Notes: a model not told the origin generated them from the sequence alone. DNA of 64,000 bases from Haladaptatus caseinilyticus (GCF_026248685.1 NZ_CP111040.1:124001-188000); one strand, 5' to 3'. Positions 2,710-22,639 are shown, numbered from the stretch's first letter. Numbers and translations: made by a program.

Positions 2710-4203
2710 CTACTCTGACTGCGTATCGAGCTGCTCGTACATATCGTTAGGGAACGGAAGACTGCCATAGATCGAGTATGGACACTGGTCGCGCCCGATA
2801 CAATAGCGCTGCATATCACCATTTGAACAGTTCATTGGGAGGGGGATCTCACCACCGATATCGTTCTCGAGTTCGTATCGAATCTGGTACTCCGTCGTCT
2901 CTTCATCATACCATGGCCACCGGGAGAACAACTTTTTCACATCACTGATGAATTCTGCTGTACTCGTGTCACGATACTGGGGCAACCACCATGCCATCCG
3001 CACAAGATTGAACAAGTCTTTGCGGACCGGTTTTTTCTCTTGGAGCCGCTCGTCCATCGCCGCCAGACAGGGAAGTTCAAAGAGATCCTCGAGATCGTCA
3101 ATATGAATCGGTTGTGCTCCATCGTTGTACTCGGTGAGCGTATAGAGGTTACGCCAGCCAGACTCGACAGTCACACTTGGATGATTTTGCATTGCGGTGA
3201 GGGCATTTCCGAGAGTTCGGGACGATGTAATCGCATCACAGGCGTGTTGTTCCCATCTTCGATCAGGCTCGTATGCATCAAGGGCATCGTACAGTTCTCG
3301 CGCAGTCTGCGATTCACCAAGCTGCACTGTGTCAGTATCTGCGGCTTTGACGGCGTTGATGATCGTCAATAGATCTCGTTTTTGCGTACTCCAATTTTCC
3401 CAGAGGCGATGAGTCTGTCCCGCCTCGAAAAACCGGTCGATCCGGTCTGTGATTGCTGACTCGTTTGCAGTTAGCCAGCTGCGTTGCTTTGGGGTAAGTG
3501 CTTCTTCCTGGGCAGTGAGTAGTCGTCCAAATGCATCCTCGGCATATGACCGATACTTCGTCATAAAATCCGAGACAGGGACATACAGATTGTTGTCCGC
3601 GATGTGTGCTTGGATCTCGCCCTGCTGGTTACCGTCACGATCCGCCCGCGCCAAGCACTTCCGCGAGGCAGCAACGAGTGGAATTTCGAGATAATATCCA
3701 TCACCGAATTCGGATCGTGTCGTGATTTCCGTACAGGCGCGACCCGAGTGCGGACCGTCTTCACCAGGCTCTTTCGCATAGAGAATTTCTGCGATCTCCT
3801 GGTGGAGCGACCAATCCTCGTATTCTCGTACGAGTGAGGCAATGTTGTTCACATAGAGTTCACGCAGATCACCGAGCAGAGCAAGGCGTCGAGGTGGCGT
3901 GTCTTCGAGTTTGGGATGATCCACAATACAGACCGCGCCAAGAGTCACGAGAACGGCGAGCATCCCTGGGTCGTCAACATACGGTCGCTCTGTGGCCTTC
4001 CGACGTGTGCTAGGCGTAAATGCATCGCACGTGAACCGCTCGATATCCGCGAGTAACTTCTCTGTTTCTTGTGTCTCGTCGACCATCCAGTGTTGATACC
4101 CACGCTCAAACAGCTGTGAAAGCTGGAACTCTCCTGCATCACGTGGCAGTGCCGCCACTCGATAGGCGGTATAGTCGTCATTTAGCGGTGTCTTTCGGGT
4201 CAT
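2710..4203 (-). CDS. PriL-like primase large subunit homologue with C-terminal Fe-S cysteines
   Basis: This is a 497-residue protein. Its last 120 residues follow the PriL C-terminal plan: Cys379 in an LPC motif, a helical stretch with YQIRYELE near 440, then Cys459, Cys468 and Cys474 (NCSNGDMQRYC and DQCPYS). In archaeal and eukaryotic PriL four such cysteines hold a 4Fe-4S cluster needed for primer initiation. The first 370 residues resemble nothing I can name. The start codon overlaps the stop of the PriS-like gene by 4 bp, so the two are translationally coupled and probably form one complex. The pair likely primes replication of the mobile element. The Fe-S role is inferred from spacing and family knowledge. 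Confidence 0.75.
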   Translation of the reverse strand: MTRKTPLNDDYTAYRVAALPRDAGEFQLSQLFERGYQHWMVDETQETEKLLADIERFTCDAFTPSTRRKATERPYVDDPGMLAVLVTLGAVCIVDHPKLEDTPPRRLALLGDLRELYVNNIASLVREYEDWSLHQEIAEILYAKEPGEDGPHSGRACTEITTRSEFGDGYYLEIPLVAASRKCLARADRDGNQQGEIQAHIADNNLYVPVSDFMTKYRSYAEDAFGRLLTAQEEALTPKQRSWLTANESAITDRIDRFFEAGQTHRLWENWSTQKRDLLTIINAVKAADTDTVQLGESQTARELYDALDAYEPDRRWEQHACDAITSSRTLGNALTAMQNHPSVTVESGWRNLYTLTEYNDGAQPIHIDDLEDLFELPCLAAMDERLQEKKPVRKDLFNLVRMAWWLPQYRDTSTAEFISDVKKLFSRWPWYDEETTEYQIRYELENDIGGEIPLPMNCSNGDMQRYCIGRDQCPYSIYGSLPFPNDMYEQLDTQSE

Positions 4204-5099
4204 GTTGTGAGAAAACTGGGGATGGCCTCGGTTCGAAAGTCGAAATCCGGACTCTGGATTGGTTGGACGACTCGCGAGACATCGGCGTGGAGTGAGTATG
4301 GGAGGCGCATCACGCGTCGTCGGTCGGCCGTAACGACAGGATCAATCGGGATCTCATACTCTTCAAGCAGGAGGTCGTTGATTACTTCGCGACTCTGCTC
4401 GTCGTAGCGGTGCTTGTGGTCGGTATCGAGCAGGTAGACGTGACATCCTTGTCCCGAGTACACAACCATTGTCTCCGTAGCCGCGAAGTCATCCTCGAAA
4501 ATCTCCTGGACAGCAAACCCATACTCAAGGGCTTGCTCGATGTCCGCGAACGCATAGGGATAGCCCTCCGGGGCACTGTCAACGATACGTGTCTCTCGAA
4601 GGTGTTCGGAATCGACTTGTTTCGTGGATTCGGTGGTCGGTTCTGCGCCGGATGCTGCTCGCCGTGCTGCGATGTCTTTGGCGTCGATATCGACGGCAAG
4701 CACCCACGGGCGTTCCCAATGATCGAGCGCATAATACACTGCGTCGGGTCGTGGCTCGGGTCGTTCGAGGAGATCCGGATCAGCAAGTGCGTAATTACTT
4801 CCTTGGAGCGGGTCGTGCCGAGCTGGATATTGAATGAACTCGATCAGCTCGTCTATTGAGTTGAACTGCTTTGTGAGTCGATCGCCAGACTTGTTGGTCT
4901 GCCACGTTTCCCGACGGATGAACGTTCGATCGGGTGCGCCCTGCTTCCGAACGGGGTACGCCTCACGGAACGCAAGAGCGTACTCCTTTGGCCCCACTGC
5001 GGTAATGAATGAGGGCAGCGTATCAATATGGGCTGGAAAACTCTCCGTATAGTACGTGTGGATTTCTTCACGGGTTGCTGCCCTCCGAGGTGTAGTCAT
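4200..5099 (-). CDS. PriS-like archaeo-eukaryotic primase catalytic subunit
   Basis: This 299-residue protein has the three catalytic motifs of archaeo-eukaryotic primases in order: AVDIDAKD with metal-binding Asp137 and Asp139, VYSGQGCHVYL with Ser215/His220 of the sGxGxH nucleotide-binding motif, and RRVMRLPYSLH with Arg265 and His271. It is shorter than chromosomal PriS and has an unfamiliar N-terminus of about 120 residues, as expected of a mobile-element primase. It would make primers for DNA synthesis together with the PriL-like product encoded just downstream. It overlaps the upstream VirD4-like gene by 4 bp (ATGA), placing DNA replication in the same transcript as DNA transfer. Confidence 0.85.
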   Translation of the reverse strand: MTTPRRAATREEIHTYYTESFPAHIDTLPSFITAVGPKEYALAFREAYPVRKQGAPDRTFIRRETWQTNKSGDRLTKQFNSIDELIEFIQYPARHDPLQGSNYALADPDLLERPEPRPDAVYYALDHWERPWVLAVDIDAKDIAARRAASGAEPTTESTKQVDSEHLRETRIVDSAPEGYPYAFADIEQALEYGFAVQEIFEDDFAATETMVVYSGQGCHVYLLDTDHKHRYDEQSREVINDLLLEEYEIPIDPVVTADRRRVMRLPYSLHADVSRVVQPIQSPDFDFRTEAIPSFLTT

Positions 5100-8000
5100 G
5101 GGTCTTCGGAGACCTCCACCTCAGCTTTCAGGCTTCGGAACGTGTGAAGCGCTGTCATTCCCGGATCGTCGTACCCGCCAATCGCTGCTCGTAGCGAGCT
5201 AATCGTCCGTTTTTGGGTTGCACTCAGCGAGATATCGAGTTTCTCAGCATCAGTGAGCGTCTCGATTGCCTCTAAGAGGAACTCTTTGTCTTCACATGCC
5301 CAGACGGCTGCTGCGTCGACGGTCGCGAGCTTCTCGTAATCAGCCAGCAATGCTTCGGGATTGTTGCTCGGAGTTTCGACCTCGCCAACCCAGATGAGTT
5401 CGTCCGCAGCAGTGAATCCAGCAACGTCAAACACGGTATTTTCTGCAGGCTGGTAATAGACCTCTGTTCGCGCAACATCTTCCTGTTGGGTGACCCACGC
5501 TTCAAGGAAGACAACCCCGGCCTTATGTGGCGTTTTCTCACCGAGATCGCCGACTCCAGGATTGACGTCCAGTGAGCGATCGAGGAACGTTCGACCGGCA
5601 GGGAGCACTGTATAGTATGTCTGCCAGAATGACCGATGTTCTTCGATAAAATCCTTCTCTTTGAGTGTCTCGATATCGAGAGCAGAAAACGGTTCTTCAA
5701 GTACACTCATGCTCTCTAAGAGTGAATACTCCTCGACCTGGTGGTTCATCGCGTCAAGCACGAGACCAAGGAACGCTGCCTCATCGCGGGTTACGCCTTC
5801 TGCCCGAAGCGTCTCGTCTGGAATATCGGTCGTTGCGTCGCTAAAACGGCCCGATACTCTCGGATCCAAAATGAGAGTGGGTTCGGATTCATGGGGTTGG
5901 CCCGATTCATCAGCAGTTGTCGTGGGGGATTCGGTAGCAGATGAATCAAGCGATGCAAACTCTTGGAAGGAGATTTCAATGCCGTAGTCTTCGGCATGAG
6001 CAGCGATTTTCCGGAATCGATCGAGAAGGTCACTGGTAGAATCAGTCGATTTGTGCGCTCGACGAGCGGCAACGAAAACCTCGTCTTTCGACGCAAACTG
6101 ACAGCAGACACTCGCTCGTCGCTTCTCAGCGTCTGTATACTCAGTGCCACAGAGATTACAGACGTAGCCGTCGGTCCCCGTATCGTAGTGGACGTGCTCG
6201 GAGAGTGCAGCATTATCGGGTCCGTCTCCCGTGTTATTCGCATCTGTCGTCTCTTCGCCTGCATCTGTGGTTCCCGCCTCTCCTTCACTAGATCCATTCT
6301 GGGTACCCGTTTCTGTCTGCTCAGACGATGTGGAGTTCGGTGGGTCTTCGGATGGTGACTGCTCCGTTGTCGGAGCGCCAAACATGGAAGCACCTCCGAA
6401 ATCCTGTTCCTCACTCGGTCGGTCGCGGGCTGGTGTGTCTCCCATACCCGTTGGGACCTTGTCGTCTGTAGCTGTGCCTGTGGCGTCACTCACATCGCTT
6501 CCACCGAAGAAGGGTGTCTCGGCTGGAGTGCCACCGTCGACAGCTTCAGCGGCGGCTGTGTGCTCTTGTGATCCGTCTGTGCCTGCAGTGTCCGCATCAC
6601 CCATCTTTGCAAGTGTCTCCCGTGCATCGTCGTGCCCGATTGTGCTCGGACGATCGGGGATACTGCATTCGCTCTGGGTTCGTCGTCTGACCTGTGGACG
6701 GGCCATCTCCTCAAAGAGGTGGTGTGCGTCACCGGCGAGTGGCTCATCACTTTCTGGGTGCCCTTCTGGAATTGGCAACGGAGCGAGCGAGAACGTCGTT
6801 GGATCGTTTTCACCAAACCCAGGACTTGGGAGTTGCACGACCCACTCGCCAGATGGTAATCGTTGTATCCGCTTGCTAAGGTCTTGTGTAGACAAATTCT
6901 CATGGCCCATCGATTTCGCGAGCTCATCGTCAACCTCGATGTTCCCGATGATTTTCGTCTTCACATTGTTCAAAATCTCTTTGTACGGTCGATTCGACCG
7001 ACTGTGATCATTCACTTGATCGGGGTACTGCATGATCAGGCCAAGGCTCACACCGAATCCTCGTCCTTGGGGCAAAAACTCCTCATAGACGAGTTCGGAA
7101 GTCGCAACCGCCGCTGCCTCTTCAATGATTACGTTCGCAATCTTCTCATCACTCGTCACTGGTTCTCCCTCGTCTGTCCTGCTCTCATCGGACCATCCCT
7201 GTGCGGCATCCCAAAGATTGCTTAGCAGAACCATCGTCAGCGCATTGCGCGAGTCGGCACGCAACTCACCGATATCGAACAAAATTACTGCATCGTCATC
7301 GAGAAAGTGACGAAAGTCAAAGACGTTCTCGGTATATTCGTTAGCTTCGTTGTCCCACTCTGGAACGTGATTGAAGATCTGATAGAGGTGTTCGAGTTCG
7401 ACCAGTTTGTTCAATCGATTCGCAGCCCCACCCATTGACTGCTGGAATTGCGTCTCATCTAGCTCACATTGCTGGAGTAACGCCCGCTCGATGTGCGCAT
7501 TCTCTGCACAAATTTCCGGGATAATGCGTTCATGGCGCATCTGATAGACAGCCTCAATGAGCGTATCCAGGCTAAACGCGTCTTGCCCGTACTCCTTATC
7601 AAACAATGCTTTGATCAAGAACGTCAAAATCTCGTTCGCGACAAATGCTCGATCGTGCGTTTCTTTCCCGAGAATCAGCCGCATGACCTCGTGAAAATGC
7701 TCGACGGTATCCTGGATTGCATCTTCACGGCGCCGGCCCATCGCAAGCTTGGGCTGGATATCAAAAAACGAGAAGGCTGGAAGCATCTCCGGCGCATCGA
7801 AGTGATAGACGTTGTCCAGTGTCCCGAATTTCGCGTAATGAGCTTTGAGGTAGTTGTCAACCATTGCATCGCCTTTCGACTCGAGCAACACTGTTGGACC
7901 GCCGACGTGCTCACTCAGTGTCAGCAGATCATTCTGGACGCTTTTGGATTTTCCAGAGCCAGTCGAGGCGGCGCGAATGTAATGTGTAACGAGTGTTGAT

Positions 8001-9313
8001 CGGTGGACGTAGATCGCGTCGTCAAGTGGTTGACTTCGATCTTTGAGCGGCAGGCCAATCGCCATCCCCGGTGCTGATAATCGGTCTAACATCTCCGGTG
8101 CTGGGAGAGACAACGGCTGACGGAGTTGTTCTTTACCGCGAGTACCACGGGCACCCTCAGTGGTCAAAGCATGGGCACTCGGTACGGCCACGAAATTAGC
8201 GAGTTCGTCCGCATTCAAAATGAGCTGCGAGCGTTTGCGCCCTTGGCGAGAGGTGTTGAGTGACCGATCGAGCAGCCGCTTGAGCTCCTTTCTGGCTGGA
8301 TCGCGGATATTGGTTAGTCCTTTCGTGAGACGGCTTCCGTCCAGCTCATAGTACGCCCCATCGAGATGATTGAACGCGTTCGCAAGCGCGTCGACGTCAC
8401 TTTCCACCGTTCCGATAGTCGAATCGTCTGCACCAGCAGGTGGCACCCCAGCTGCACGCAGGTTTACCAGATACGTCTGAGATGGGTTTTTCTGGTCGAT
8501 GAGTGCTTGCCGGGAGGCAGCTCCTCCACTTGTGGCGTTTGGTGCTTGGCCGATATTCTCTCCGATCTGCGGTGCGTCTCGGCCACGCCGTCGATCACGA
8601 ATCTCTTCTTCGTCATAGCCCCGAAGCATATCTCTGAGATTGGTCTTCGTGGTTTGGACGAACCCATCACGTTTCGTCTGAATATTCTCCTTGCGTGTAT
8701 TGGCCGCTTTCTCCCAGTCCGCATACCGTGTGAAGAGCACTTGCAAAACGGTGGGAGCACTCGCGTTCGCAAGCCGCTCGACGGCCGTTGCGAGCGGGGC
8801 TTTCGCCGATGTACTATCGCCATTCTGTGTCGTGTGGAGCTGTGAATACTGTGTGAGCGGCGTCATCCAATCATCAGTGCGCGTTGCCACGCCCTGCCAC
8901 CGTGCCGCGATTGGCGACCGGTTCACTAGTTCCGATCGCGCATCATCGATAGACTGGGACTCGACAGTATCTTTGTCCGTATCGGGATCCCTGGTGGATG
9001 GCCCAAGTAATTCCACTGGGAGTGTGAGCTCTTCCTCTGACAGGTCGTAACTCGCCGGGTATGCAGTGGTCAACTCCGAGCGGATAGTCGACAAAAGCGT
9101 CTCATCATCAACGCCGAGATAGAAACGGACAGGTGTTTGATTCCCCTGTGTAAGCGCGAGAAACTCGAAGATGGGTGCATTCTTCTGAGGGAGATATTTG
9201 ACTTTCCAGCCCGATTTGAGCTTGCGTAGGCCAGCGAGGCGAGAGATAATATCGGAGGGGATGACACGTTCGTGGGCAGGTTCGATTCGAATGTAGCGAC
9301 GAGTAACAGTCAT
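5096..9313 (-). CDS. Giant VirD4/TraD-like coupling ATPase with zinc-finger and nuclease-like tail
   Basis: The protein has 1405 residues, about twice a normal coupling protein. Walker A is AASTGSGKSKS (about 448-458), Walker B-like ANVIIEEAAAV (about 727-737), with GRGFGVSLGLIMQYPDQV after it, the arrangement of the VirD4/TraG/HerA family that pumps DNA through a conjugative channel. Residues about 850-1040 are low-complexity Asp/Glu/Ser/Thr linker. A C4-type motif follows (VCNLCG ... VCCQF), then a helical part and a C-terminal alpha/beta domain with FDVAGFTAADELIWVGEVE, which resembles a PD-(D/E)xK nuclease core. No transmembrane anchor is evident at the N-terminus. It lies between the VirB4-like and primase genes. 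ATPase identity is firm; the nuclease-like assignment is a hypothesis. Confidence 0.8.
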   Translation of the reverse strand: MTVTRRYIRIEPAHERVIPSDIISRLAGLRKLKSGWKVKYLPQKNAPIFEFLALTQGNQTPVRFYLGVDDETLLSTIRSELTTAYPASYDLSEEELTLPVELLGPSTRDPDTDKDTVESQSIDDARSELVNRSPIAARWQGVATRTDDWMTPLTQYSQLHTTQNGDSTSAKAPLATAVERLANASAPTVLQVLFTRYADWEKAANTRKENIQTKRDGFVQTTKTNLRDMLRGYDEEEIRDRRRGRDAPQIGENIGQAPNATSGGAASRQALIDQKNPSQTYLVNLRAAGVPPAGADDSTIGTVESDVDALANAFNHLDGAYYELDGSRLTKGLTNIRDPARKELKRLLDRSLNTSRQGRKRSQLILNADELANFVAVPSAHALTTEGARGTRGKEQLRQPLSLPAPEMLDRLSAPGMAIGLPLKDRSQPLDDAIYVHRSTLVTHYIRAASTGSGKSKSVQNDLLTLSEHVGGPTVLLESKGDAMVDNYLKAHYAKFGTLDNVYHFDAPEMLPAFSFFDIQPKLAMGRRREDAIQDTVEHFHEVMRLILGKETHDRAFVANEILTFLIKALFDKEYGQDAFSLDTLIEAVYQMRHERIIPEICAENAHIERALLQQCELDETQFQQSMGGAANRLNKLVELEHLYQIFNHVPEWDNEANEYTENVFDFRHFLDDDAVILFDIGELRADSRNALTMVLLSNLWDAAQGWSDESRTDEGEPVTSDEKIANVIIEEAAAVATSELVYEEFLPQGRGFGVSLGLIMQYPDQVNDHSRSNRPYKEILNNVKTKIIGNIEVDDELAKSMGHENLSTQDLSKRIQRLPSGEWVVQLPSPGFGENDPTTFSLAPLPIPEGHPESDEPLAGDAHHLFEEMARPQVRRRTQSECSIPDRPSTIGHDDARETLAKMGDADTAGTDGSQEHTAAAEAVDGGTPAETPFFGGSDVSDATGTATDDKVPTGMGDTPARDRPSEEQDFGGASMFGAPTTEQSPSEDPPNSTSSEQTETGTQNGSSEGEAGTTDAGEETTDANNTGDGPDNAALSEHVHYDTGTDGYVCNLCGTEYTDAEKRRASVCCQFASKDEVFVAARRAHKSTDSTSDLLDRFRKIAAHAEDYGIEISFQEFASLDSSATESPTTTADESGQPHESEPTLILDPRVSGRFSDATTDIPDETLRAEGVTRDEAAFLGLVLDAMNHQVEEYSLLESMSVLEEPFSALDIETLKEKDFIEEHRSFWQTYYTVLPAGRTFLDRSLDVNPGVGDLGEKTPHKAGVVFLEAWVTQQEDVARTEVYYQPAENTVFDVAGFTAADELIWVGEVETPSNNPEALLADYEKLATVDAAAVWACEDKEFLLEAIETLTDAEKLDISLSATQKRTISSLRAAIGGYDDPGMTALHTFRSLKAEVEVSEDP

Positions 9314-9345: not shown

Positions 9346-11565
9346 TTAGCTGGTGGATGTAGTGGATTTGCGAGCCTGTTCGAGCAGTGACTGAGGTATG
9401 TTATACTCGTTGGCGCGTCTGTCCGCAAGCAGGTAGGAAACATCACCTGTGTCGAGCGCATTTTGCTCGATGAGATACTCCCACGGGTCGAGATCTTCGT
9501 CGAGCACGTGGACGGCAAACTCATCCACGTGTAACTGAATGCGCTTTTTCCAGTCGTTGACGAGCAGTAGGCTTTCCGAGTGAGTTCCGTCCTCACCGGT
9601 CTGTGCGGAGGCGATGAACCGCTGTTCGTTATGCGTGAGATCATGGGTCGCGATCATCTCCTCACTCACTGATTCGTGCCGGAAGATCTGCTTGATATTA
9701 CACAGATTGTAGATTTCGCGAGCTTTCTCCAGTGCATCTGCAGACTGCTCAGTTGACTCGACGAGGAATTCATCTACCGTTTGGGAGATCAACGTCAGTC
9801 CGGTGTTGAAGTGGCGACTATGTCGGATGAACAGGTCGATCAGATCCGTCGTGGCTGCTCGGCGCAAAAGGTAGTGTGCCTCATCGATTGTCACCTGCGT
9901 CCGGCGATCGCTGCTCTGTGCTCGCTGGTAGATCCAGTCGAACATCACGTGCATAAACAGCGGCGCTTGTCCCGTATCGGAGAACATCGACATATCGATG
10001 GTTACGAGACGGTTGTCGAGTTCGACATTCGTCCGCCCGTTCAGATTCGCGTTCTCGCCACCCTCTTGGAAGGCTTCAAGTCCGAGCAACAGCTGGTAGG
10101 CAAGCCGCTCATCCGTCTCTCGGAACCGATCAGCGATATCCTGAACCTTTGGGACAACTCGTCGCTCCTCGGCTCCCGCATGGTACTCAATGAACTCTGT
10201 TGGGTCGTCACCATCGGCAATGTGTTCGAGGATATCGATGATATCCCCGATAATCGGACTCGTGTTTTCGTGTGTGGCTGGATCCTCGGTGATGCCGTAC
10301 TGGTAATAGGAAAGCAAGACGGCACGCCGAAGAATGCCTTCCTGTTCATTTGAGAGGGCTTGGCCGTCTCCTGCAGCAAAATGGAGTCGGAATAACTCCA
10401 TGACCGACCGGTACTTCTTGAGGAACGGATCTTCGACGACGTCGTCGATACCTCGTCGAATTTCAAGTGGGTTGATCGTATTCTCGCCACCAAACCGAAT
10501 GACTTGCCCACCGAGATCCTCGGCAAAGTCGACGAAATCAGCCAGTGGATCCAGGACGAGGAGCTCGATTTCGGGATCCATCATCATCCGATGGAACATC
10601 TCGTACTTCTCGGCGAATGTCTTTCCCGATCCCATTTCACCAGCAATCACCTTCGAATACGAGGAGAATCGATAGCGATCAAGAAGAACGGGTGTATGTG
10701 TCCCGTCGAATCCGTAGTAGACGCCCTCGTCATCGGCCAATGCTGGCTCGATGAATGGGAACATCGTGCCGACAGCCGTCTCCTGCATGAGTTGGGTCGC
10801 TTTGATCGGGTCATTCCCGAGCGGCGCAAGCGCGTCCTGTGACTCGACTTGGCGCTTTTCGAGTGGGACGGCTTCTGTATTGGCCTTAGCAATAATCTCC
10901 AGGGCACGCTCAGTCGCCTCGTTCAATTCCTGCTTTGAATCGGCGATGATCTCGAAATAGATAGCGAAGGTGAATAGCTTCGTCTCGCCGCGAATAATAT
11001 CCCAAATGAGATCCGAGACTGCCTCGTGGTCGGATTCGAGTTCGTGAGTATCACTCTGATTCTTTTCGTCTTTCCGATAGAGGCGAGCACGGAGTTGTGT
11101 GAGGCGATTGCGGAGTTTCCGAAGAATTTCATGGGAATCCCGTGGCCGGATGTGCTGTGTAACTCGGATGTTGTCGTGGGTTGTATAGAGGTCGTCAAGC
11201 CAGCCGAGCGGAACACGCTCGGGATAGCCATGGATCGTCATCGTGCGCACGTACTGGCCACCACGAACCATGTATCCCGACTCTAAGAGCCCTGATTTCT
11301 CGGAAATCTCGTGTGGGGCGATGATATCCCGGTCGGCGAACGAGCGTTCTGTCTCGTCTTGAAGTACACCGAGACGAATCTCACCGTCCTCGGAATTTTC
11401 GAGTTCAAGGAGATATCTCGCTTGGGCCTGGATGTTTTCCTTCGAGAGTTCGTCGCCGTTTGCCTCGAGGATGGCAGTTGCCCGGTCGAAAACCTCATCA
11501 TCGATTTCATCTAGTCCAGGCTCACTCTCCAACCCTGGAATGAGTGATCGGAGGCGGGAACCCAT
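9346..11565 (-). CDS. VirB4/TraC-like conjugation ATPase
   Basis: This 739-residue ATPase is of the VirB4 type. Walker A is AGEMGSGKT (about 308-316), followed by LLVLDPLADF as in VirB4 strand 2; Walker B is VTIDEAHYLL (about 558-567), and FNTGLTLISQTVDEFL follows as the conserved sensor-like strand. VirB4 energises assembly of the type IV secretion channel at the inner face of the membrane. Length is normal for the family. The gene follows the VirB4-N-domain-like gene by only 2 nt, so the two are co-translated. The C-terminus is Ser/Thr-rich and of no known role. Confidence 0.85.
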   Translation of the reverse strand: MGSRLRSLIPGLESEPGLDEIDDEVFDRATAILEANGDELSKENIQAQARYLLELENSEDGEIRLGVLQDETERSFADRDIIAPHEISEKSGLLESGYMVRGGQYVRTMTIHGYPERVPLGWLDDLYTTHDNIRVTQHIRPRDSHEILRKLRNRLTQLRARLYRKDEKNQSDTHELESDHEAVSDLIWDIIRGETKLFTFAIYFEIIADSKQELNEATERALEIIAKANTEAVPLEKRQVESQDALAPLGNDPIKATQLMQETAVGTMFPFIEPALADDEGVYYGFDGTHTPVLLDRYRFSSYSKVIAGEMGSGKTFAEKYEMFHRMMMDPEIELLVLDPLADFVDFAEDLGGQVIRFGGENTINPLEIRRGIDDVVEDPFLKKYRSVMELFRLHFAAGDGQALSNEQEGILRRAVLLSYYQYGITEDPATHENTSPIIGDIIDILEHIADGDDPTEFIEYHAGAEERRVVPKVQDIADRFRETDERLAYQLLLGLEAFQEGGENANLNGRTNVELDNRLVTIDMSMFSDTGQAPLFMHVMFDWIYQRAQSSDRRTQVTIDEAHYLLRRAATTDLIDLFIRHSRHFNTGLTLISQTVDEFLVESTEQSADALEKAREIYNLCNIKQIFRHESVSEEMIATHDLTHNEQRFIASAQTGEDGTHSESLLLVNDWKKRIQLHVDEFAVHVLDEDLDPWEYLIEQNALDTGDVSYLLADRRANEYNIPQSLLEQARKSTTSTS

Positions 11566-14402: not shown

Positions 14403-14464
14403 ACAGGTCGTGTTCTTTTTCGTCACATTTGGTGAATAGCGTTTGCGCAAGGATTGTTTTTCAA

Positions 14465-14935: not shown

Positions 14936-16447
14936 TCATTCGTGACTACCTACAAGGGCACCAGCGAGGAACCAGAACGGAATGGTGTTTGCATACCGAA
15001 GCGGTGTCACCCAGAAGCCAACAACGACATAGGCAACGACGGCACCAACAATCCCGGCACGAAATGCGGTTGGTCGAGCAATCCACGATGATAGTGCCGA
15101 GAGAAAGACTAGACCGAGCGCCAGAAGGAACAATAGGCCCCCAACAAATCCGATTTCGGCAAACATCCCGACAATCATCGAATGAATCGGGAATGCACTC
15201 CCACCGCCTAACTGGGATGGGAGGTTATACTGTGATGCCGTATAAGCGTAATTAGCACCACCGATTCCAAAGAGTGGATTATCAAGTGCCATTTGAATCC
15301 CGCCCGCGAGCTGTCGGAAGCGGATTGACGCGGAGTTAGAGTTCTCGAAGAGGCGTTGAAGGTACCATAGCGACCCAACGACACCGGCAACGATGACCGC
15401 AGAGCCTCCAGCAATGACACGCCGATCGACAAGCGACGAGAGCTCAATCCAGTCATTCCCAATTGCCCAGAGTAATGCACCAACTCCAAGCCCAGCGAAA
15501 AGACCCATGAATGCTGATTCTTTTGCCGTAAGAAACAGCGCGAAGGACAACAGGAGAGGAAGTGAAAGCACGGCATACGAGCCACGCCGTTCGATGGCAA
15601 ATCCGACAGACAGCGGTGTTACGAAGGCCAATAAAATCGACAGTGGTGCTGACCCACCCGTGAGACCGCTAATGTAGAGGCCATACATTAGTCCACCAAT
15701 AGGGAACACTGCACGCGACTTAGATACATCGCGAGCGACTTCGCCAAGGAACGAAAAGCCAAACGAACCCTGCGCGGCGAATTGTACCACTCCGAACACT
15801 GCATGTCCAGCAGCCACAACGAGTAATACGTAAACTACACCTCGTGGCGAGATATAGCCACGCTGTACGGCACGATACATCGCTCCGAAAGAGACTGCAA
15901 GCACGCCAACGTAAAGCGAAAAGAACACTGCTACCAATGGTCGTTCCGGAGACCCGAGTATTGCACCAAGAAGTGCCCAAACCGCCATTCCGATAATAAG
16001 CATCTCAACAGGAATGACTTCGAAAGTGGACTGTCGGAGAGCAAGCATCGCGACAAGAATCCCAAGCGGGATGAAAACCAACCAGAGATGAGGTCCAATG
16101 TTCGCAGGGTATTCAGTGGCACTGGATAGCAGTGGCACGTTTGAAGAGATTGTTGCGGTGATAATCGCGGCAACACACACTCCGACAGGGATTGCACCTA
16201 TTGAGATGACAAAGACGCTATAGGCACTTATGATAAGCGCGAGCGAAGCCAGGAGACCATAAATCATCGGAACTCCGACAATGTTCAAAAGGGTTGCGAT
16301 AGCTGGTGTAGCAAAAAGTAGTCCAACGGTGAGGAGAACCGAGAGAAAGACGGCGTCCCCGGTCGGTGAAAACGGTGTTTCTGCCCGCTGATATTTGTTG
16401 AGTTGGTGGGAGACTGTTGTGGTGATGGTCTCTGATGCAGTGCTCAT
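14936..16447 (-). CDS. O-antigen ligase/Wzy-like multi-pass membrane protein (element-borne)
   Basis: The product has about 503 residues with roughly eleven hydrophobic segments and a periplasm-side loop with the ligase/polymerase motif FGIGGANYAYTASQYNLPSQ, then FPIHSMIVGMFAEIGFVGGL. This layout matches Wzy_C/WaaL proteins, which transfer or polymerise lipid-linked glycans outside the membrane. It resembles the protein at 35187-36737 along its length (shared GP-x-LWL, SAxVPL and GIGGxNxAY blocks), so the two are paralogues. The start at 16447 is chosen over one 9 nt upstream because it gives an ATGA overlap with the small gene before it. Its place within a secretion-type element suggests a surface-glycan-altering cargo gene. 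Confidence 0.8.
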   Translation of the reverse strand: MSTASETITTTVSHQLNKYQRAETPFSPTGDAVFLSVLLTVGLLFATPAIATLLNIVGVPMIYGLLASLALIISAYSVFVISIGAIPVGVCVAAIITATISSNVPLLSSATEYPANIGPHLWLVFIPLGILVAMLALRQSTFEVIPVEMLIIGMAVWALLGAILGSPERPLVAVFFSLYVGVLAVSFGAMYRAVQRGYISPRGVVYVLLVVAAGHAVFGVVQFAAQGSFGFSFLGEVARDVSKSRAVFPIGGLMYGLYISGLTGGSAPLSILLAFVTPLSVGFAIERRGSYAVLSLPLLLSFALFLTAKESAFMGLFAGLGVGALLWAIGNDWIELSSLVDRRVIAGGSAVIVAGVVGSLWYLQRLFENSNSASIRFRQLAGGIQMALDNPLFGIGGANYAYTASQYNLPSQLGGGSAFPIHSMIVGMFAEIGFVGGLLFLLALGLVFLSALSSWIARPTAFRAGIVGAVVAYVVVGFWVTPLRYANTIPFWFLAGALVGSHE

Positions 16448-16590
16448 TTGTCGCACTCCTCGATGCGGTCTAAGAGGTCTGCGATTGCATCATTTGAGTT
16501 GGCAAGGCCGTGGCTGGCACGGTAAATGTCGAGTCGGCGAGTGACGTCAGGACCAAGCCGAGGGCGTGATGATTTCTGTTGTTCGCTCAT
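16444..16590 (-). CDS. 48-residue ribbon-helix-helix-like small protein
   Basis: The protein (MSEQQKSSRPRLGPDVTRRL, then DIYRASHGLANSNDAIADLL) has a short basic strand followed by two helices, the layout of compact RHH/CopG-like DNA-binding proteins. The start at 16590 is preferred over in-frame upstream ATGs because it sits directly after an interrupted palindrome and a TATA-like box at leaderless spacing. Its stop overlaps the ATG of the O-antigen-ligase-like gene (ATGA), so it should be the first gene of a two-gene operon and may repress it. The RHH call is by size and pattern only. Confidence 0.6.
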   Translation of the reverse strand: MSEQQKSSRPRLGPDVTRRLDIYRASHGLANSNDAIADLLDRIEECDK

Positions 16591-16595
16591 ATACT

Positions 16596-16620
16596 GGTAC
16601 CTTTGGTACCCCGTATATAT
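16596..16620 (-). promoter_or_regulatory. Promoter with embedded GGTACC-TTT-GGTACC operator
   Basis: GGTACC (16596-16601) and GGTACC (16605-16610) flank TTT, giving a 15-bp near-perfect inverted and direct repeat. On the minus strand a TATA-like ATATATAC stretch (about 16619-16612) precedes it, and the start codon follows 5 nt beyond. The palindrome therefore lies between the TATA box and the start of a leaderless gene, where a bound dimer pair would block transcription. The first gene encodes a possible RHH protein, so autorepression is the natural reading. Confidence 0.55.
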
Positions 16621-16680
16621 GTTTTCTGCTATTGCGATAAAATCAAGCAGACAGCGACTTATCAGAGTCCACGAGGGTGA

Positions 16681-17121
16681 GTGGCGAGTACCACAATCAG
16701 AAGTAAACTGGACCACACATATTATAAGATTCATCAAACTGATGCACTCGGTTCTGGGAGTTCGAAAAATCAGAAGCGATTGGAAATCAAGCGTATTAAA
16801 ATCACTAACGACAAGTGGAAAGATTGTACGACAATCAATATTGACCGCAAACCTGATGAAATCAGCGAAATATTGGGGACGGTACTGTCGAATGGTGGAC
16901 TTATCTCATGGATGTCAGCCAAGATACAGATGAAACCAGGTAATCCACAGATCGCATTCGAGACACCACCGAAGGGTAGAGGATTGCCCGGTACGAGAAA
17001 CACCGACGAGCATTTGATTATCATTGATGCGACCGACTCCAGCGCAGTCGAGTATGAGTTAGAGGTTTCTGTCATCACGGTTCTCGCGTTAAAATCACGT
17101 GTCTTATCGAAGCGAGTGTAG
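16681..17121 (+). CDS. Hypothetical beta-rich protein, probably with altered C-terminus
   Basis: The 146-residue frame has protein character in its middle: KRLEIKRIKITNDKWKDCTT, then WMSAKIQMKPGNPQIAFETP and DEHLIIIDATDSSAVEYELE, alternating hydrophobic strands typical of a small beta-sandwich. I do not recognise the family. From about position 17071 the text changes (ITVLALKSRVLSKRV) and overlaps, on the other strand, the end of a DUF433-like fragment, so the natural C-terminus may be lost by a deletion that joined two genes. The start is uncertain; it sits about 60-90 nt from the divergent small-protein promoter. It could be a pseudogene. Confidence 0.4.
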   Translation: MASTTIRSKLDHTYYKIHQTDALGSGSSKNQKRLEIKRIKITNDKWKDCTTINIDRKPDEISEILGTVLSNGGLISWMSAKIQMKPGNPQIAFETPPKGRGLPGTRNTDEHLIIIDATDSSAVEYELEVSVITVLALKSRVLSKRV

Positions 17122-17294
17122 TAGTATGACAATAATTTACATGGGTCCGTATGTGCGAGATTAAGCTGGTCAGCAACATATGCAGGCAACTGGCTATTGT
17201 CAATCATTTTCGCTCCGATGTAACGAACACCAATACGAGGCCTCTGAATCCGTGGTTCGGCATCGAGAACGTCGTCACTGCGAATTATCATCAT
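17075..17294 (-). pseudogene. DUF433 antitoxin-like fragment
   Basis: From 17294 leftward the minus strand reads IIRSDDVLDAEPRIQRPRIG, VRYIGAKM, and YVADQLNLAHTDPCKLLSYY, which follows the DUF433 pattern (DDVLGGxPRIxGTRIGV ... VADQLxL ... ALxYYY). DUF433 proteins act as antitoxins, usually followed by a DUF5615 PIN-like toxin; none is present. After about 17080 the frame continues without domain character into the opposite-strand gene. It is likely a leftover of a toxin-antitoxin pair cut by a deletion. The boundaries are approximate. Confidence 0.6.
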
Positions 17295-17389
17295 AGATTA
17301 AAACTTGCTGTAACATGAGTTATACCCTGTCTGCCTCTTTTCCTCCGTTCCAAAGGAAATCTCTATCTTCCGCCTTGATTGCTGGTTCA

Positions 17390-18802
17390 TCAGCCAGTAG
17401 TCGTCGATTCTGGGAACGACTCAGTGAGATCGACATACGTGATTGCTTGGGCATCTCGTTCAGCAGCCTGCATTGCAGCATCATCGACAATTCCAACAAT
17501 ATCTGCACTACTTAGATCAGTGGATTGCTCGGCTAACTTCTGGTACTCCTCTTGATCAAGATCAGTTGGGAGCGCTTGCAACCTAACTTTGAAGATTTTC
17601 TCGCGTGCTTCTTCGTTTGGCAGATCAACCTCATACTGCTGATCAAAGCGGCCACGACGAGTAGCGGCTTCATCAAGCAAGTCCGCACGATTCGTTGCTG
17701 CGATAAGCAGAAAACTCGGGTCTTCATCGTCTAAGTGCGCCAGAAACTCGTTGACGACTTGAGCATGCTCACGATGAAGATCGTTTCCGCGACCTGCGAG
17801 GAGTGCGTCAATCTCGTCGACGAAGATCACACACCGCTCGAATTGCTCGGCTTCCTTGAACAATTGGTTGACTTGCTCAGTGGACTCATTCACCCACCGG
17901 CTTTTGATATCGCCAGCACTCAACTCGAGGTATGGATGGCCGAGTTCACCAGCAATCGCCCGAGCGAAGTGTGTTTTCCCAGTACCAGGAGGGCCATGTA
18001 GGAGGATGCCGTTCGGTGGCGAGACGTTGAACCGTTCGTAGGCGGCATCAGTGTGCGAAAGCGGGCGAAGAACCGATCGCATAATATTGCGTTTGAGATC
18101 ATCCATGCCACCGACATCGTGAAACCTCGTGGTGGGTGCTGACTCCCAGCCAAATGTGAGATCTGACTGTATATCCGTCATCTCCTCTTTATTGCGATTC
18201 TGGTGCTGACCCTGTTCTTGTCGCTTGATAGGTTGGTTCTTCTCTTGACTACGATCTCGGGTCGATTGTGCTCGCTGTTTCTCTGTCTTCTTGGTGTGAT
18301 CCTCATTAGATCCCAGCACTACTGAAAAGCTCGTCAACTGTATCGGAATGCATGCTATCCAACTAAGTCCCATTAGCCATGGATCGTCGAGCATTGGCGC
18401 AGCTCGGAAGAGTTGCAAGACTCCTGCAAGCTGTGGAGAAAGATGGGCCCAGAGCGGAAGAAACCACACACCGGTCAATAAAATTAGTCCGGTAATCTCT
18501 CCAAGAATCCATCCGGTATCTATTTCTTGAACATCCAACTGAATTGCCTGCCATGTGAGATCATAAATTGTAGCGGCGATGTAGGTTGGAAGGGTCCAGA
18601 TAGCAAATATAGCGAGAGTCGCTGGAATTAGTATACCAGCGGTTGACGTCAGTTCGCCCGCGATTACTAATAATCCAATTGGGATAAGTAAATAGCACGC
18701 CAGGGCAACCAGTGTAGAGAACGCGATTCTGAGAAGTCTCTTTGGACCGTGTGAGGTGTTGTTCTGCGATGTGGTGGACGTTATCTTTTCTTGACCGTCC
18801 AT
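17390..18802 (-). CDS. Membrane-anchored AAA+ ATPase (CDC48/FtsH-type module)
   Basis: The product has 470 residues. Four hydrophobic segments occupy residues about 24-50, 55-80, 100-120 and 140-163, then a charged Lys/Gln/Arg/Glu linker (165-210) and one AAA+ module: Walker A GPPGTGKT (270-277), Walker B VIFVDEID (325-332), sensor 1 AATNRAD (368-374), arginine finger RRGR (382-385), and a C-terminal helical lid ending VGIVDDAAMQAAERD. There is no zinc-protease HExxH, so it is not FtsH itself. It would remodel or extract protein substrates at the membrane. Between TrbL-like and RHH genes of the secretion block it may serve channel assembly. A scar copy of its end lies at 14465-14570. Confidence 0.8.
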   Translation of the reverse strand: MDGQEKITSTTSQNNTSHGPKRLLRIAFSTLVALACYLLIPIGLLVIAGELTSTAGILIPATLAIFAIWTLPTYIAATIYDLTWQAIQLDVQEIDTGWILGEITGLILLTGVWFLPLWAHLSPQLAGVLQLFRAAPMLDDPWLMGLSWIACIPIQLTSFSVVLGSNEDHTKKTEKQRAQSTRDRSQEKNQPIKRQEQGQHQNRNKEEMTDIQSDLTFGWESAPTTRFHDVGGMDDLKRNIMRSVLRPLSHTDAAYERFNVSPPNGILLHGPPGTGKTHFARAIAGELGHPYLELSAGDIKSRWVNESTEQVNQLFKEAEQFERCVIFVDEIDALLAGRGNDLHREHAQVVNEFLAHLDDEDPSFLLIAATNRADLLDEAATRRGRFDQQYEVDLPNEEAREKIFKVRLQALPTDLDQEEYQKLAEQSTDLSSADIVGIVDDAAMQAAERDAQAITYVDLTESFPESTTTG

Positions 18803-18848: not shown

Positions 18849-20324
18849 TTATTTTGAGCTCTGCCTCTCTCTGGAGGAGCCGGTCCATTCGTTCAGTGTG
18901 CTCTGGTCCGCTTTTGATCCATTCTTGGATGGATCTATCACTGGATTTTCGCGATAGTGTCCGAGACCAGCTTCTGCCCAATCGAGAGGGGAGCGGTCAA
19001 GATTTCGCAATGCGAAATTTGTGCCGACACGAGCATCGTTTGCAGCACGCTTTCCACCATTCTTTGCTCGCTTACCTTGTTTCTTCACGAACTCAGCCTT
19101 TTGTTCCATCTTAGGCCCTTCAATTTTGGATCCAGCACGACTTTTTACGCTTCCAACAGTTGAGCTGGCTTTATCGACACTTCCACTAACCGCTCCACCA
19201 GTGAGACTCTGGTCAAGAGAGCTCATTTTAGAACTTGCGTAGCTACCAGCTTGCTTCCCCCCAAAGCGCGCCTGGTTCATGATACTCGCACGACTTGACT
19301 GCGGCGACTTCCCACCCGATGCCGATGACCGACTTCGAGATGTCCGCTTTCGCCGACTGCGGATCCGACCAGGGACAAAGCCCGAGGACATGGCTGTTTT
19401 CAGCCCATAGATCGCGGGTGCCACCAAACCGATCAACCAGAAAAGGAATGACTCGAGAACTTCGTTGAAGGAGCCAGGATCTGATCCTGCGGTGGCCGCT
19501 GCCTGTGTGGCTGCGCCGGATCCAGTGATACCCATCGCAGTTGCTCCGACGTACATGAGCGCTGCCATGAAAATCCCTGCAAACAAGAGCGAGAGCGTCG
19601 CGTTGATGAACATTTTCGCAGCTTTCGCCGAATCCTCGAATGGCCCAAAGTCGAGATAGAGCATAACTGCCAGAATCGGCAGCGTCACAAACATCGCCAC
19701 GAAGAGGAACTCCCGAATCACCAGCATTGCAAACAACAGGAGAATTCCGGCAATCGAAGTTACACTCAAAATCACCATGCCGACCGCAACAACACCCGCA
19801 GAGGCAGCTGCACCCTCCATTCCGGTTTTAAGCATCTCGGTTCCGAATGCGCCGTAGCTCTCAGGGTAGATGTAGGCAATGACCGCATTCACGAGCAGCA
19901 GGCCAAAATGCATGAGCTGACGCCCCACAGCAACAAAGATAATCGCCTTGAGCGCCTTCCAAACCAGGATTACACTATCGACGTCGGCATTTTTCGAAAA
20001 TGGCTGTGAGGCAAAGCCAGCCATCACCACGACCACAAGTAATTGGGGGAAGATACCCAACAGGTGGTCAAATGATTGGAGGTACTGCGGATCGGTATAG
20101 GGGCTATCGAAGACCAAGAAGGTGTACACGCCACCCGACATCAACAGCCCGACAAAGCCCATGAGCTTCGTCATGAGCCAAGTGAACAGATCCGCGATCC
20201 ACCCGGTGAATCCAGCGGCAAGAACGAACGGCGTTATCTCTGTGGGGAGATGGCTGACGTTGCCTATGAGGTTGGGAACACTGTGAGCGATCGATGTGCC
20301 GTGTGTTTGGAGGGTGGGAGTCAT
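18849..20324 (-). CDS. TrbL/VirB6-like polytopic membrane protein
   Basis: The product has 491 residues. The first 310 hold six or seven hydrophobic helices, including WIADLFTWLMTKLMGFVGLL, a long extracellular stretch around Tyr/Asp-rich SPYTDPQYLQSF, and GGxxxxA-rich helices (AAASAGVVAVGMVILSVTSI). The last 170 are hydrophilic, rich in Arg, Lys, Ser and Gly (RIRSRRKRTSRSRSSASGGK). That split is typical of TrbL/VirB6 channel components of type IV secretion systems, which have a polytopic core and a variable cytosolic tail. It lies 46 bp before the AAA+ gene on the same strand. The family call rests on topology and context. Confidence 0.65.
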   Translation of the reverse strand: MTPTLQTHGTSIAHSVPNLIGNVSHLPTEITPFVLAAGFTGWIADLFTWLMTKLMGFVGLLMSGGVYTFLVFDSPYTDPQYLQSFDHLLGIFPQLLVVVVMAGFASQPFSKNADVDSVILVWKALKAIIFVAVGRQLMHFGLLLVNAVIAYIYPESYGAFGTEMLKTGMEGAAASAGVVAVGMVILSVTSIAGILLLFAMLVIREFLFVAMFVTLPILAVMLYLDFGPFEDSAKAAKMFINATLSLLFAGIFMAALMYVGATAMGITGSGAATQAAATAGSDPGSFNEVLESFLFWLIGLVAPAIYGLKTAMSSGFVPGRIRSRRKRTSRSRSSASGGKSPQSSRASIMNQARFGGKQAGSYASSKMSSLDQSLTGGAVSGSVDKASSTVGSVKSRAGSKIEGPKMEQKAEFVKKQGKRAKNGGKRAANDARVGTNFALRNLDRSPLDWAEAGLGHYRENPVIDPSKNGSKADQSTLNEWTGSSRERQSSK

Positions 20325-20400
20325 TGGGTGTCAAAAAGATGGTGTTTGCTAGTATATCAGTGCCATCTCGTAAAAATATTTTCTTAGATATTGTGAATTA

Positions 20401-22227
20401 TTATCGACGGAGATAGTGAAATGGAAGATAGAATAGCACGAATGCAATGACTGCCACGAATCCTTTACTCAGTGCCATCAGTGCACTATAGATATTGAAC
20501 GGTGTGGGCGCAAATCGAATCTGATTGTGCGATGGGGCATAGTAGAGTCCCTGTGAATCATTGGCGACACCGCGAAACGTCGCTTCGACGGCACTCTCAT
20601 CACGCGTGACGACAGCGATTCCGTCACTGTTGGTGGTGACACGACCCTGGGTGGCCCCGTGAAGATAGACCGATTGGTTAGCGATCGGGTTCCCGGTTTG
20701 GGCGTCGGTGAGTTCAATCTGGACGTGTCTCTTATCCTGCTTCGTCAGTGTGAGCGAAACTGGATGTTCGGAGGCAGTCCTCGTTGTCAGCGGGATCTCA
20801 TCACCATGGATGTCGTAGAGTGCAGTGAGTAGTTGATCGACGTTCCTGATAACTACACGAGTGGATGCCCGTGGTGGAACCGATGAGAGGTTGACGGTCG
20901 GCCTGAGCGAGGCAGCCTCAGTGGTGAGCGGAATAGATTGAACACGCCCGACAGTTGCCGTTGATGCTGTCTGTGAGTCAGTGTGAGCGATCACTGGCTT
21001 GCTTCGAACGGCGATCAGCTGTTTTTCGAGAACATCTGGTGGCGGAACTGTTCTCTGTGAGGTCATGCTATGTGGCCAGGAGTGATTGGCTGACCTGTTG
21101 AGCGGAGCTAGTGGCTGTGATGCATTGCGTGAGAGCGTCGTGTTGGGTCCCTGGATGCCGATCGTTGTATTCTGGTAGCGATGCTGGGAGTAGATTCCCC
21201 ATACATTTTGGAGGCGCATCTGTCCCGATTTGAATGTCGCGTAACTCCAGTGTCGACGATTGGTGACGCTCTTCGGCCCGTCTATGCGGAGAATAATCCG
21301 TTTGAGGTTGCCGTTATCAGTGACGAGTGTTTGCGTCGCGTTGAGCTGTTGGTTCGGTGTGATCACGACAGGTGCTGTATCGCGAACAGTATGCGAAAGA
21401 AGGGTCGTATTTGAGGTCACATTCGCTTGCTGCCATCCAGATTTCGTCCGGAGAGAGACGGTCTTGTGAATGGCCAGCTGCGTAGTGATCGTTCCTCGAA
21501 CAACCATTGTCGTTCGGCCAGGCGCCCCCGCGTTCGTGTATGTCAGCGGCCGCGATGCTCCAGCTTCCTGTGAGGGCTCTCCCGTAGCCCATGTTTGCGA
21601 GCCAATTCTGAGTGATCGATTGATGGATTGATTCGTGATAGAGTAGTTGAGACACGTTCTGGTGCCATTCGTGACCGTGCAGGTTTGATTTGGAAGCACC
21701 GTCGAGTAATCGAGCGAGGCGAGAATAGATCCGTTTCGAGGAAGCAGGATGAGCTTTTGTGACGATGTGTTTGTTCGTCCCAGACGGGTTTGGGTCCCGT
21801 TCTGTGTCCCGAGGATCGTCACATGAGCATTTTTGACGATAGTCCCGTTCGTACGATTCGAATTAGGAAACCACACGCTTGTCGACCGGTTGTGCGGCAG
21901 GTTCTGGAGGTTAGTGCGACGGTACTCTCCAAGCGTCTGATTGCGAGGCCCGACTGCGTGGGACGGTTGGGATGTCGAATACGTGAAATCACGAAACTGA
22001 CTGGCGTTTGCCGCTGAGATCTTCTGGGACTGGAGAATCGTCCGGAGGTCTGGCTGAATGAATGGTGGCAGTTCTCCAATATTGGGATCTGGGTCGTCAG
22101 AAACAAAGACGTCAGTAGCGTTGGCGAGTTTGGTGGTGCTGACACCTGTTGCGAACGAACTGAGTAAAAGTAGGACAACGAGTCCAAGAATGAGTGGCTG
22201 AAGACGTGTGTCCGAGAGTGGTGGCAT
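20401..22227 (-). CDS. Large Asn-glycosylated surface protein with C-terminal membrane anchor
   Basis: The 608-residue protein starts with a Sec-type signal (LILGLVVLLLLSSFATGV, residues 12-29) and ends with a hydrophobic helix and basic residues (KGFVAVIAFVLFYLPFHYLR), so nearly all of it is outside the cell. The ectodomain is Thr/Ser/Asn-rich with more than 20 N-x-S/T sequons (for example NRSANHS, NQSINRS). Residues about 500-560 (VQIELTDAQTGNPIANQSVY, DGIAVVT) follow the Ig-like/carboxypeptidase-regulatory repeat seen in extracellular proteins. The function is unknown. Lying between the pilin-like and TrbL-like genes, it may be an archaeal-specific adhesin or outer collar of the secretion channel. 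Confidence 0.65.
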   Translation of the reverse strand: MPPLSDTRLQPLILGLVVLLLLSSFATGVSTTKLANATDVFVSDDPDPNIGELPPFIQPDLRTILQSQKISAANASQFRDFTYSTSQPSHAVGPRNQTLGEYRRTNLQNLPHNRSTSVWFPNSNRTNGTIVKNAHVTILGTQNGTQTRLGRTNTSSQKLILLPRNGSILASLDYSTVLPNQTCTVTNGTRTCLNYSITNQSINRSLRIGSQTWATGEPSQEAGASRPLTYTNAGAPGRTTMVVRGTITTQLAIHKTVSLRTKSGWQQANVTSNTTLLSHTVRDTAPVVITPNQQLNATQTLVTDNGNLKRIILRIDGPKSVTNRRHWSYATFKSGQMRLQNVWGIYSQHRYQNTTIGIQGPNTTLSRNASQPLAPLNRSANHSWPHSMTSQRTVPPPDVLEKQLIAVRSKPVIAHTDSQTASTATVGRVQSIPLTTEAASLRPTVNLSSVPPRASTRVVIRNVDQLLTALYDIHGDEIPLTTRTASEHPVSLTLTKQDKRHVQIELTDAQTGNPIANQSVYLHGATQGRVTTNSDGIAVVTRDESAVEATFRGVANDSQGLYYAPSHNQIRFAPTPFNIYSALMALSKGFVAVIAFVLFYLPFHYLRR

Positions 22228-22297
22228 TCGTGGGGAAAGCGTGTATAGGGCGATGGTCGGCCGATGATATACAGGAGTCGAACCTGGCGTACCGTCG

Positions 22298-22639
22298 TTA
22301 GAAGACCGGTGGGACGATCATCCCCGGAGCAAGGTTTTCGAAGAGCGTGACGAACACATTATAGCTAACCGAGAGAACGATCATGCCAGCGCCGCCCCAG
22401 AGCGCACGCCAACCCCACTGTGTGCGACTTGCGTTGCGTCCGGAGACGAACCAGATCGCTGCCCCGACGAGGAAGACGATAACCCCAAGCTGGCCGAGTG
22501 TGGTGGCAACGAACTGTTCAATTTCGCTGAGCGAGTTATTGATCTCGCTTTGTTGAGCGGCGGCGATGCCAGTATTGACACTGAACGTGACCAGTACCGT
22601 AACCAAATACGTAACGTGATGTCGGAATGGGAGGCGCAT
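22298..22639 (-). CDS. VirB2/TrbC-like pilin candidate
   Basis: Starting at 22639 the product has 113 residues; an ATG 24 nt upstream is possible but adds a charged, signal-incompatible stretch. It has a signal peptide (YLVTVLVTFSVNTGIAAA, likely cut before QQSEI), a short helix, and two hydrophobic helices (LGQLGVIVFLVGAAIWFV and LWGGAGMIVLSVSYNVFV) joined by a short charged loop SGRNASRTQWG. This is the plan of VirB2/TrbC pilins, small two-helix proteins that polymerise into the conjugative pilus. It is the first minus-strand gene of the second secretion block, as virB2 often is. The family call is inferred from topology. Confidence 0.6.
   Translation of the reverse strand: MRLPFRHHVTYLVTVLVTFSVNTGIAAAQQSEINNSLSEIEQFVATTLGQLGVIVFLVGAAIWFVSGRNASRTQWGWRALWGGAGMIVLSVSYNVFVTLFENLAPGMIVPPVF

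Follow-up and report, generated by a model that had tools for sequence, protein, structure and literature searches.

Organization of the operon and its replicon

The window, a 64,000-nucleotide stretch of Haladaptatus caseinilyticus DNA, carries on its minus strand a series of genes resembling those of conjugation-type secretion machines, ending in a two-gene primase. Operons of this kind take two forms, A (window-like) and B (in Halobacterium, Natrinema and Halorubrum plasmids). The most upstream gene (22298..22663) encodes a VirB2/TrbC-like pilin with two TM-like segments, for which the matches to PF04956 (E = 4.6e-4) and PF18895 (E = 3e-3) both score below the curated cut-offs. It is followed by genes for a secreted, C-terminally anchored surface protein with N- and C-terminal hydrophobic segments (20401..22227), homologs of which lie upstream of VirB4 in both forms, a TrbL/VirB6-like polytopic membrane protein in a conserved position with seven TM-like segments (18849..20324), and a membrane-anchored AAA+ ATPase with TM-like segments that is conserved in form A (17390..18802; PF00004, E = 9e-38). 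Divergent from these genes, on the plus strand, is a PadR-family gene (22882..23250; PF03551, E = 1.6e-11), whose DNA is conserved beside the block at loci L001 and L118 and in a second copy on contig C3 of the same genome, and whose product is a possible regulator of the operon.

The downstream part starts with a PrgI/VirB3-like small membrane protein (12617..13006, minus strand) with one strong TM segment in a conserved position. Neither this protein nor the TrbL-like protein matched any Pfam or NCBIfam HMM, and both were assigned solely from topology and position. An accessory protein resembling the VirB4 N-terminus (11568..12611) was assigned from a weak VirB4 N-domain match (E = 0.09) and from its position directly upstream of VirB4, which it occupies in every form A operon. 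The VirB4 ATPase itself (9346..11565) matches the NCBIfam CD1110 VirB4 family (E = 6.8e-65) and PDB 4ag5 (E = 1.3e-17), and is, by these matches, a conjugation VirB4 and not HerA. Next come a VirD4/TraD-like motor with a winged-helix and PD-(D/E)xK-like C-terminal tail (5096..9313), a PriS-like catalytic primase subunit of the AEP type (4200..5099) and a PriL-like primase subunit (2710..4203), all on the minus strand. Every gene named in the first-pass annotation was found where it had been placed, and its central observation, that one operon combines a motor of the conjugation type with PriS and PriL, was borne out. The 4-bp overlaps that it had described for the six-gene operon are present at the last two junctions, VirD4/PriS and PriS/PriL, and not at the others, where there are gaps of 5 bp (PrgI/VirB4-N), 2 bp (VirB4-N/VirB4) and 32 bp (VirB4/VirD4).

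The upstream genes had been described as a separate second block. DNA comparison identified two conserved stretches, one at 2724-13092 and the other at about 17419-23250. Between them lie 4.4 kb in the window, 18.5 kb of other DNA in the C3 copy and about 0.1 kb at locus L120. In five relatives (L101, L103, L105, L106 and L120) the AAA+ gene directly adjoins PrgI, so that the region corresponding to 17390-22663 runs straight into the downstream genes. The two blocks are therefore one operon with a cargo insertion point. The insert dividing the operon in the window (13007..17389), absent from these five relatives, encodes a lamin-tail-domain protein (13755-14402, plus strand; Pfam LTD) and an O-antigen-ligase-like protein (14936-16456, minus strand; Pfam Wzy_C), and also holds small ORFs.

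The module is carried by contig C5, 607 kb long, in a genome of 4.8 Mb whose closest relatives in the tree belong to Haladaptatus. Two further VirB4 genes occur in the same genome: contig C3 (142 kb) has one that is 97% identical to that of the window, and contig C4 a distant one. An active integrative conjugative element had been proposed, with a search of the flanks for an integrase as a check. No tyrosine recombinase was matched along the whole 607-kb contig, and there are no tRNA genes within the 64-kb window. The contig has its own Orc1/Cdc6 genes, the nearest relatives of the module are on annotated plasmids, and its relatives overall are mostly plasmids. Because the replicon has its own Orc1/Cdc6 and lacks a tyrosine recombinase, the integrative reading is unsupported. 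Orc1/Cdc6 genes were found on all 16 module contigs checked (15 genomes), and replication initiation is therefore separately provided on each. The earlier remark that no relaxase could be recognized still stands: the PF03432 and PF08751 relaxase models matched in none of 25 module-bearing genomes, and PF13814 gave nothing over its cut-off in module-bearing genomes. All 83 plasmids with the PriL-like gene were typed as non-mobilizable by MOB-suite.

The primase pair and the VirD4-like motor

The PriS-like protein matches TIGR00335 (E = 1.5e-9), and a profile of its family matches Pyrococcus PriS (PDB 1g71, E = 4.6e-9), with the DxD, SG.G.H and R..LP.(S)LH catalytic motifs aligned to those of 1g71. 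Residues D137, D139, H220, R265 and H271 are invariant in 13 sequences. At 299 aa the protein is shorter than cellular PriS.

The PriL-like protein belongs to a family that NCBIfam names "primase-associated protein" (NF038197, E = 2.7e-226) and has four invariant cysteines, C379, C459, C468 and C474. Comparison of its C-terminus with haloarchaeal PriL by hhalign gave a probability of 82% and E = 9.8e-6 with all four Fe-S cysteines aligned, against E = 0.28 for the reversed control. Independently, PF04104 (PriL) matches a divergent family member (G010:C2:1561-1860, E = 2.3e-4). Because of the profile-profile cysteine alignment and this independent match, "PriL-like" is, at the level of sequence, the better label. 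The N-terminal part has no sequence resemblance to cellular PriL, with no match to the helical PriS-binding domain; a PDB profile search with the family found nothing, and the AF2 model is poor (mean pLDDT 50). The host also carries a chromosomal PriL. The presence of a PriL gene on a plasmid is itself unusual, because PriL is almost confined to chromosomal primases (Kazlauskas et al., PMC5862659).

The VirD4-like protein has a Walker A motif at residues 449-456. Six of 13 members of its family match SXT TraD (best E = 6e-10), and some match CD1115 VirD4, HerA or T4SS-DNA_transf; the window copy alone gives a weak HerA match only (E = 2.9e-4). No TM segment, including an N-terminal membrane helix, was predicted in the window copy. 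In the VirD4 that accompanies PriS/PriL, AF2 predicted a winged helix followed by an alpha-beta3-alpha-beta core in the tail (about residues 1160-1355), with a core pLDDT of about 83-95. The core has a conserved D and ExE in positions that fit the PD-(D/E)xK topology. The best Foldseek matches were mostly PD-(D/E)xK nucleases, such as DrdV, NucS/EndoMS and HindIII, with a best E of 0.037 and nothing below 1e-3. We regard the modeled tail as no more than a candidate domain for nicking or recognizing DNA. Assignment of the tail as a Replic_Relax domain was rejected, with no support from Pfam, as was a shared origin for the tails of the two main VirD4 types, where a D...ExE resemblance was visible by eye and homology was not significant.

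Linkage and exchange of VirD4 and primase

Of the 242 halobacterial genomes, 67 contain NF038197 (63 of them above the cut-off), for the most part on contigs of plasmid size. Where the PriL-like gene is full length, VirB4, VirD4, PriS and PriL usually occur together; orphan or broken copies were found at five places (L100, L107, L110, L112 and L113). Conserved linkage had been put forward as a check on the module, and the operon gene order does recur across Halobacteria, with an almost constant spacing that is shared by dozens of species. This linkage is far above chance. Between forms A and B, identity is 26% for VirB4, 66% for PriS, 54% for PriL and 41% for VirD4.

We counted VirD4 loci in the 242 genomes using a search model built from both VirD4 types, so that the count was independent of neighboring genes. 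The threshold of at least 1089 bits was set at a break in the scores, of which the next one was 935. This gave 108 loci. Directly downstream on the same strand were PriS/PriL at 50 loci, a PrimPol with the PF22763 domain at 50 and a third primase at six, so that a primase immediately follows VirD4 at 106 of 108; the other two (G236 and G237) are both at contig ends. PriS/PriL and PrimPol lie at a nearly fixed distance from VirD4. Lower-scoring VirD4 relatives (595-935 bits) served as a contrast, and 29 of these 42 have no adjacent primase. In a separate scan with a VirB4 alignment, 49 of 124 VirB4 loci had PriS/PriL, 48 had PrimPol and none had both. The remaining 27 had no primase directly downstream, and most of the 20 of these that were inspected also had no VirD4 within about 17-19 kb, while three had a VirD4-PrimPol pair 8-13 kb away. 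We therefore rejected a general requirement of VirB4 systems for a primase.

The PrimPol that takes the place of PriS/PriL is a protein of about 418 aa, preceded by the same VirB4 but a different VirD4. It matches the Pfam NrS-1 polymerase domain at about 1e-30 and NrS-1 PrimPol structures at about 1e-52, and PrimPol types carry the NrS-1 helicase-binding domain PF22763. Haloferax volcanii gives scores for both primase families. A D5/P4-primase C-terminal domain (D5C) is present on VirD4 in 11 of 12 members of the PrimPol type. The third primase is found on Haloarcula marismortui pNG600 and others (six loci, including G049). Over 564 residues it shares 53% identity with the front of the 1285-aa primase-helicase encoded by the 15.8-kb plasmid pHTUR06; this replicase has D5_N, an SF3-helicase region and, at its C-terminus, a D5 domain. 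By this similarity the third primase corresponds to a P4-type plasmid primase-helicase without its rear half, and derives from a plasmid replicase. No Pfam or NCBIfam model covers the front half of the replicase, which we take to be the primase domain itself from its motifs and from its annotation as a "DNA primase family protein". The pNG600 VirD4 has a D5 domain at its own C-terminal end, and the arrangement looks as if VirD4 stood where the SF3 helicase had been.

Comparison of individual loci showed that the motor and the primase move together. In five pairs (L118/L119, L057/L167, L182/L190, L066/L175 and L093/L155) the VirB4 proteins are 91-96% identical, the VirD4 proteins only 24-57% identical, and the primases different. 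One of these pairs involves a close relative of the window, a Haladaptatus halobius plasmid (L119), which has a VirB4 91% identical to that of the window, another VirD4 and a PrimPol. The VirB4 tree, a quick tree with many starred branches, requires at least eight switches between the two main primase types. Form A splits in the trees of PriL and VirD4, where it is joined by L108, a locus with a very divergent VirB4. Because near-identical VirB4 proteins are found with different VirD4 and primase families, with at least eight switches and with D5C on the PrimPol-type VirD4, VirD4 and primase are, on these comparisons, an exchangeable cassette riding on the transfer machine. By the same comparisons, three primase families have repeatedly replaced one another behind VirD4.

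Proposed function and comparison with known systems

We consider it probable that the window module is a plasmid transfer operon encoding a relaxase-less VirB4/VirD4-type machine, whose motor is tied to a primase that primes the complementary strand. VirD4 would drive plasmid DNA as a single strand through a channel of VirB4, PrgI, TrbL and VirB2. The primase, made together with the motor and probably docked on VirD4, would prime the complementary strand, either in the recipient, should it travel with the DNA, or in the donor, on the strand left behind. Less firmly, VirD4 might use its PD-(D/E)xK-like tail to recognize or nick DNA and so substitute for a relaxase. The likeliest role for this primase would be to start the strand complementary to the transferred DNA, which would make it an archaeal analog of RP4 TraC and the R1162 MobA-primase. 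The proposed coupling of priming to transfer is backed by the replacement of the primase at one operon position and by the joint exchange of VirD4 and primase. Also counted in favor were the invariant PriS catalytic residues and the four invariant PriL Fe-S cysteines, the Orc1/Cdc6 genes on the module contigs, the contrast with lower-scoring VirD4 relatives, and the precedents of pT33-3 and R1162. Relaxase-free archaeal transfer could, however, move double strands, which would need no primer, and this counts against the explanation. Also counted against it were the window VirD4, with no TM anchor and a weak HerA match only, the non-mobilizable MOB-suite calls, the poor AF2 model of PriL and the VirB4 loci that have no primase directly downstream.

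Only tentatively do we go further and suggest that coupling protein and primase form the DNA-processing core of haloarchaeal conjugation, replacing the relaxosome. The tail would recognize or nick the plasmid, and the primase would be an exchangeable subunit, placed where an SF3 helicase would be, that leaves with each transferred strand and is swapped together with VirD4.

The primase might instead serve vegetative plasmid replication and merely be co-transcribed with the transfer genes. AEP primases are common among plasmid replication proteins (PMC5862659), and a plasmid replicase is the source of the third primase type. We nevertheless think this unlikely, because the primase follows the VirD4 type through repeated swaps while the Mpf genes remain, VirD4 has acquired the D5C domain, Orc1/Cdc6 genes are present on every module contig checked, and the host also has a chromosomal PriL. 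The absence of TM helices from the window VirD4, the NrS-1 helicase-binding domain PF22763 in the PrimPol types and the D5C domain on VirD4, as in primase-helicases, would fit a helicase-primase machine, in which the motor unwinds DNA for plasmid or conjugative rolling-circle replication in the donor and does not couple to export; the VirB4, TrbL-, PrgI- and VirB2-like genes of the same operon, and the matches of some family VirD4 proteins to TraD/T4SS-DNA_transf, make this improbable. Import or exchange of DNA, as by Ced/Ted in Crenarchaeota, or loading of vesicles, with the primase converting imported single strands, would agree with the failure to find a relaxase and with CedB/CedD matches to some VirD4/VirB4 members, but those matches are weak and the module is plasmid-borne and mobile, unlike a fixed chromosomal competence locus, making this very improbable.

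For the transfer operon, the association of VirD4 with a primase (106/108 loci, three families, cassette exchange) suggests that priming is probably a built-in, required part of archaeal transfer, and argues for a single-stranded transfer intermediate. It also gives functional context to the NCBI "primase-associated protein", as a plasmid PriL with an Fe-S domain, and provides an annotation rule for transfer operons on plasmids typed as non-mobilizable. We found no published description of VirD4-primase linkage in haloarchaea in the open-access literature searched.

VirB4/VirD4 genes have been reported in Halobacteria as a 53-kb "possible DNA secretion system" of Hfx. volcanii (PMC2841640) and in fusexin-bearing integrated elements (PMC9259645). 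In contrast to the present module, these are chromosomally integrated with XerC/D, and the passages describing them mention no link to a primase. The PriS catalytic motifs and four-cysteine Fe-S domain of PriL are shared with cellular PriS/PriL and with the PolpTN2 PriS-PriL fusion (PMC5862659), whereas here the subunits are two separate plasmid genes, with a shorter PriS and a dissimilar PriL N-terminal part. The sister-operon primase resembles the NrS-1 phage PrimPol (PDB 6k9a and 6a9w; E about 1e-52) and shares its PF22763 domain, but its gene stands behind VirD4 in a transfer operon.

RP4 TraC and ColIb Sog are conjugative primases of bacterial plasmids. The haloarchaeal primase resembles these, the R1162 MobA-primase and relaxase-RepB' fusions (PMC5862659) in having its place among genes for transfer and in its presumed role of priming the transferred strand; the MobA-linked primase is required for R1162 mobilization (cited in PMC12857230). 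The bacterial primases are free or fused to a relaxase, whereas here the coupling protein has as its partner a primase from one of three AEP or AEP-like families, in modules with no recognized relaxase. The module is also like the Thermococcus pT33-3 and Sulfolobus pNOB8 family in being plasmid-borne, with VirB4 and VirD4 ATPases and no recognizable relaxase (PMC12857230). VirB4/VirD4 are required for transfer of pT33-3, these archaeal plasmids have no known relaxase, and the way in which they conjugate without one is still to be explained (PMC12857230). That review describes no primase linked to VirD4 in such plasmids, whereas in the haloarchaeal operons a primase directly follows VirD4 at 106 of 108 loci.

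Exchange of the VirD4-primase cassette

The VirB4 encoded at L119:10001-21227, a related locus on a Haladaptatus halobius plasmid, is 91% identical to that of the window; its VirD4 differs, apparently carrying an N-terminal membrane segment, and its primase is a PrimPol. Judged from sequence, this locus represents a recent swap of the cassette comprising VirD4 and its primase. In Natrinema gelatinilyticum a PrimPol gene (L121:20637-21896) lies 3' of an intact PriS/PriL pair, an arrangement that may be an intermediate of primase replacement. VirD4 and PrimPol are still adjacent in three Haloferax-type loci (L227, L228 and L236), but are convergent there, with VirB4 8-13 kb distant. The 80-kb contig C4 of the source genome encodes a distant VirB4 system (G000:C4:45626-47347), and neither PriS/PriL nor PrimPol was detectable with it in the sequence stretches examined (L007 and L022).

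Cargo, surface protein and regulator

A cargo hotspot at 13007-17389 of the window is bounded by the AAA+ gene on one side and the PrgI gene on the other. The window carries 4.4 kb here, encoding O-antigen ligase-like and lamin-tail proteins, whereas the copy on contig C3 of the source genome holds 18.5 kb and the related locus L120 only ~0.1 kb. An anchored surface protein (20401-22227), a candidate adhesin, fusogen or channel cap, is present both in window-like modules (form A) and in those of Halobacterium, Natrinema and Halorubrum plasmids (form B), despite divergence to ~22% identity. Divergent to the operon is a PadR-family regulator gene (22882-23250), possibly a switch of the transfer genes, whose neighbouring position is kept in relatives.

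Genes flanking the module

Adjoining the transfer operon on the same large plasmid is a long cluster (28142-63145) that comprises nucleotide-sugar, glycosyltransferase, flippase and sulfatase-like genes. A conserved set lies 3' of the primase in plasmids of form B and of the pNG600 type (L001-L004 and L263): small paired ORFs, a TFB gene and a gene for a ~290-aa DNA-binding protein, a candidate relaxosome or partition factor.
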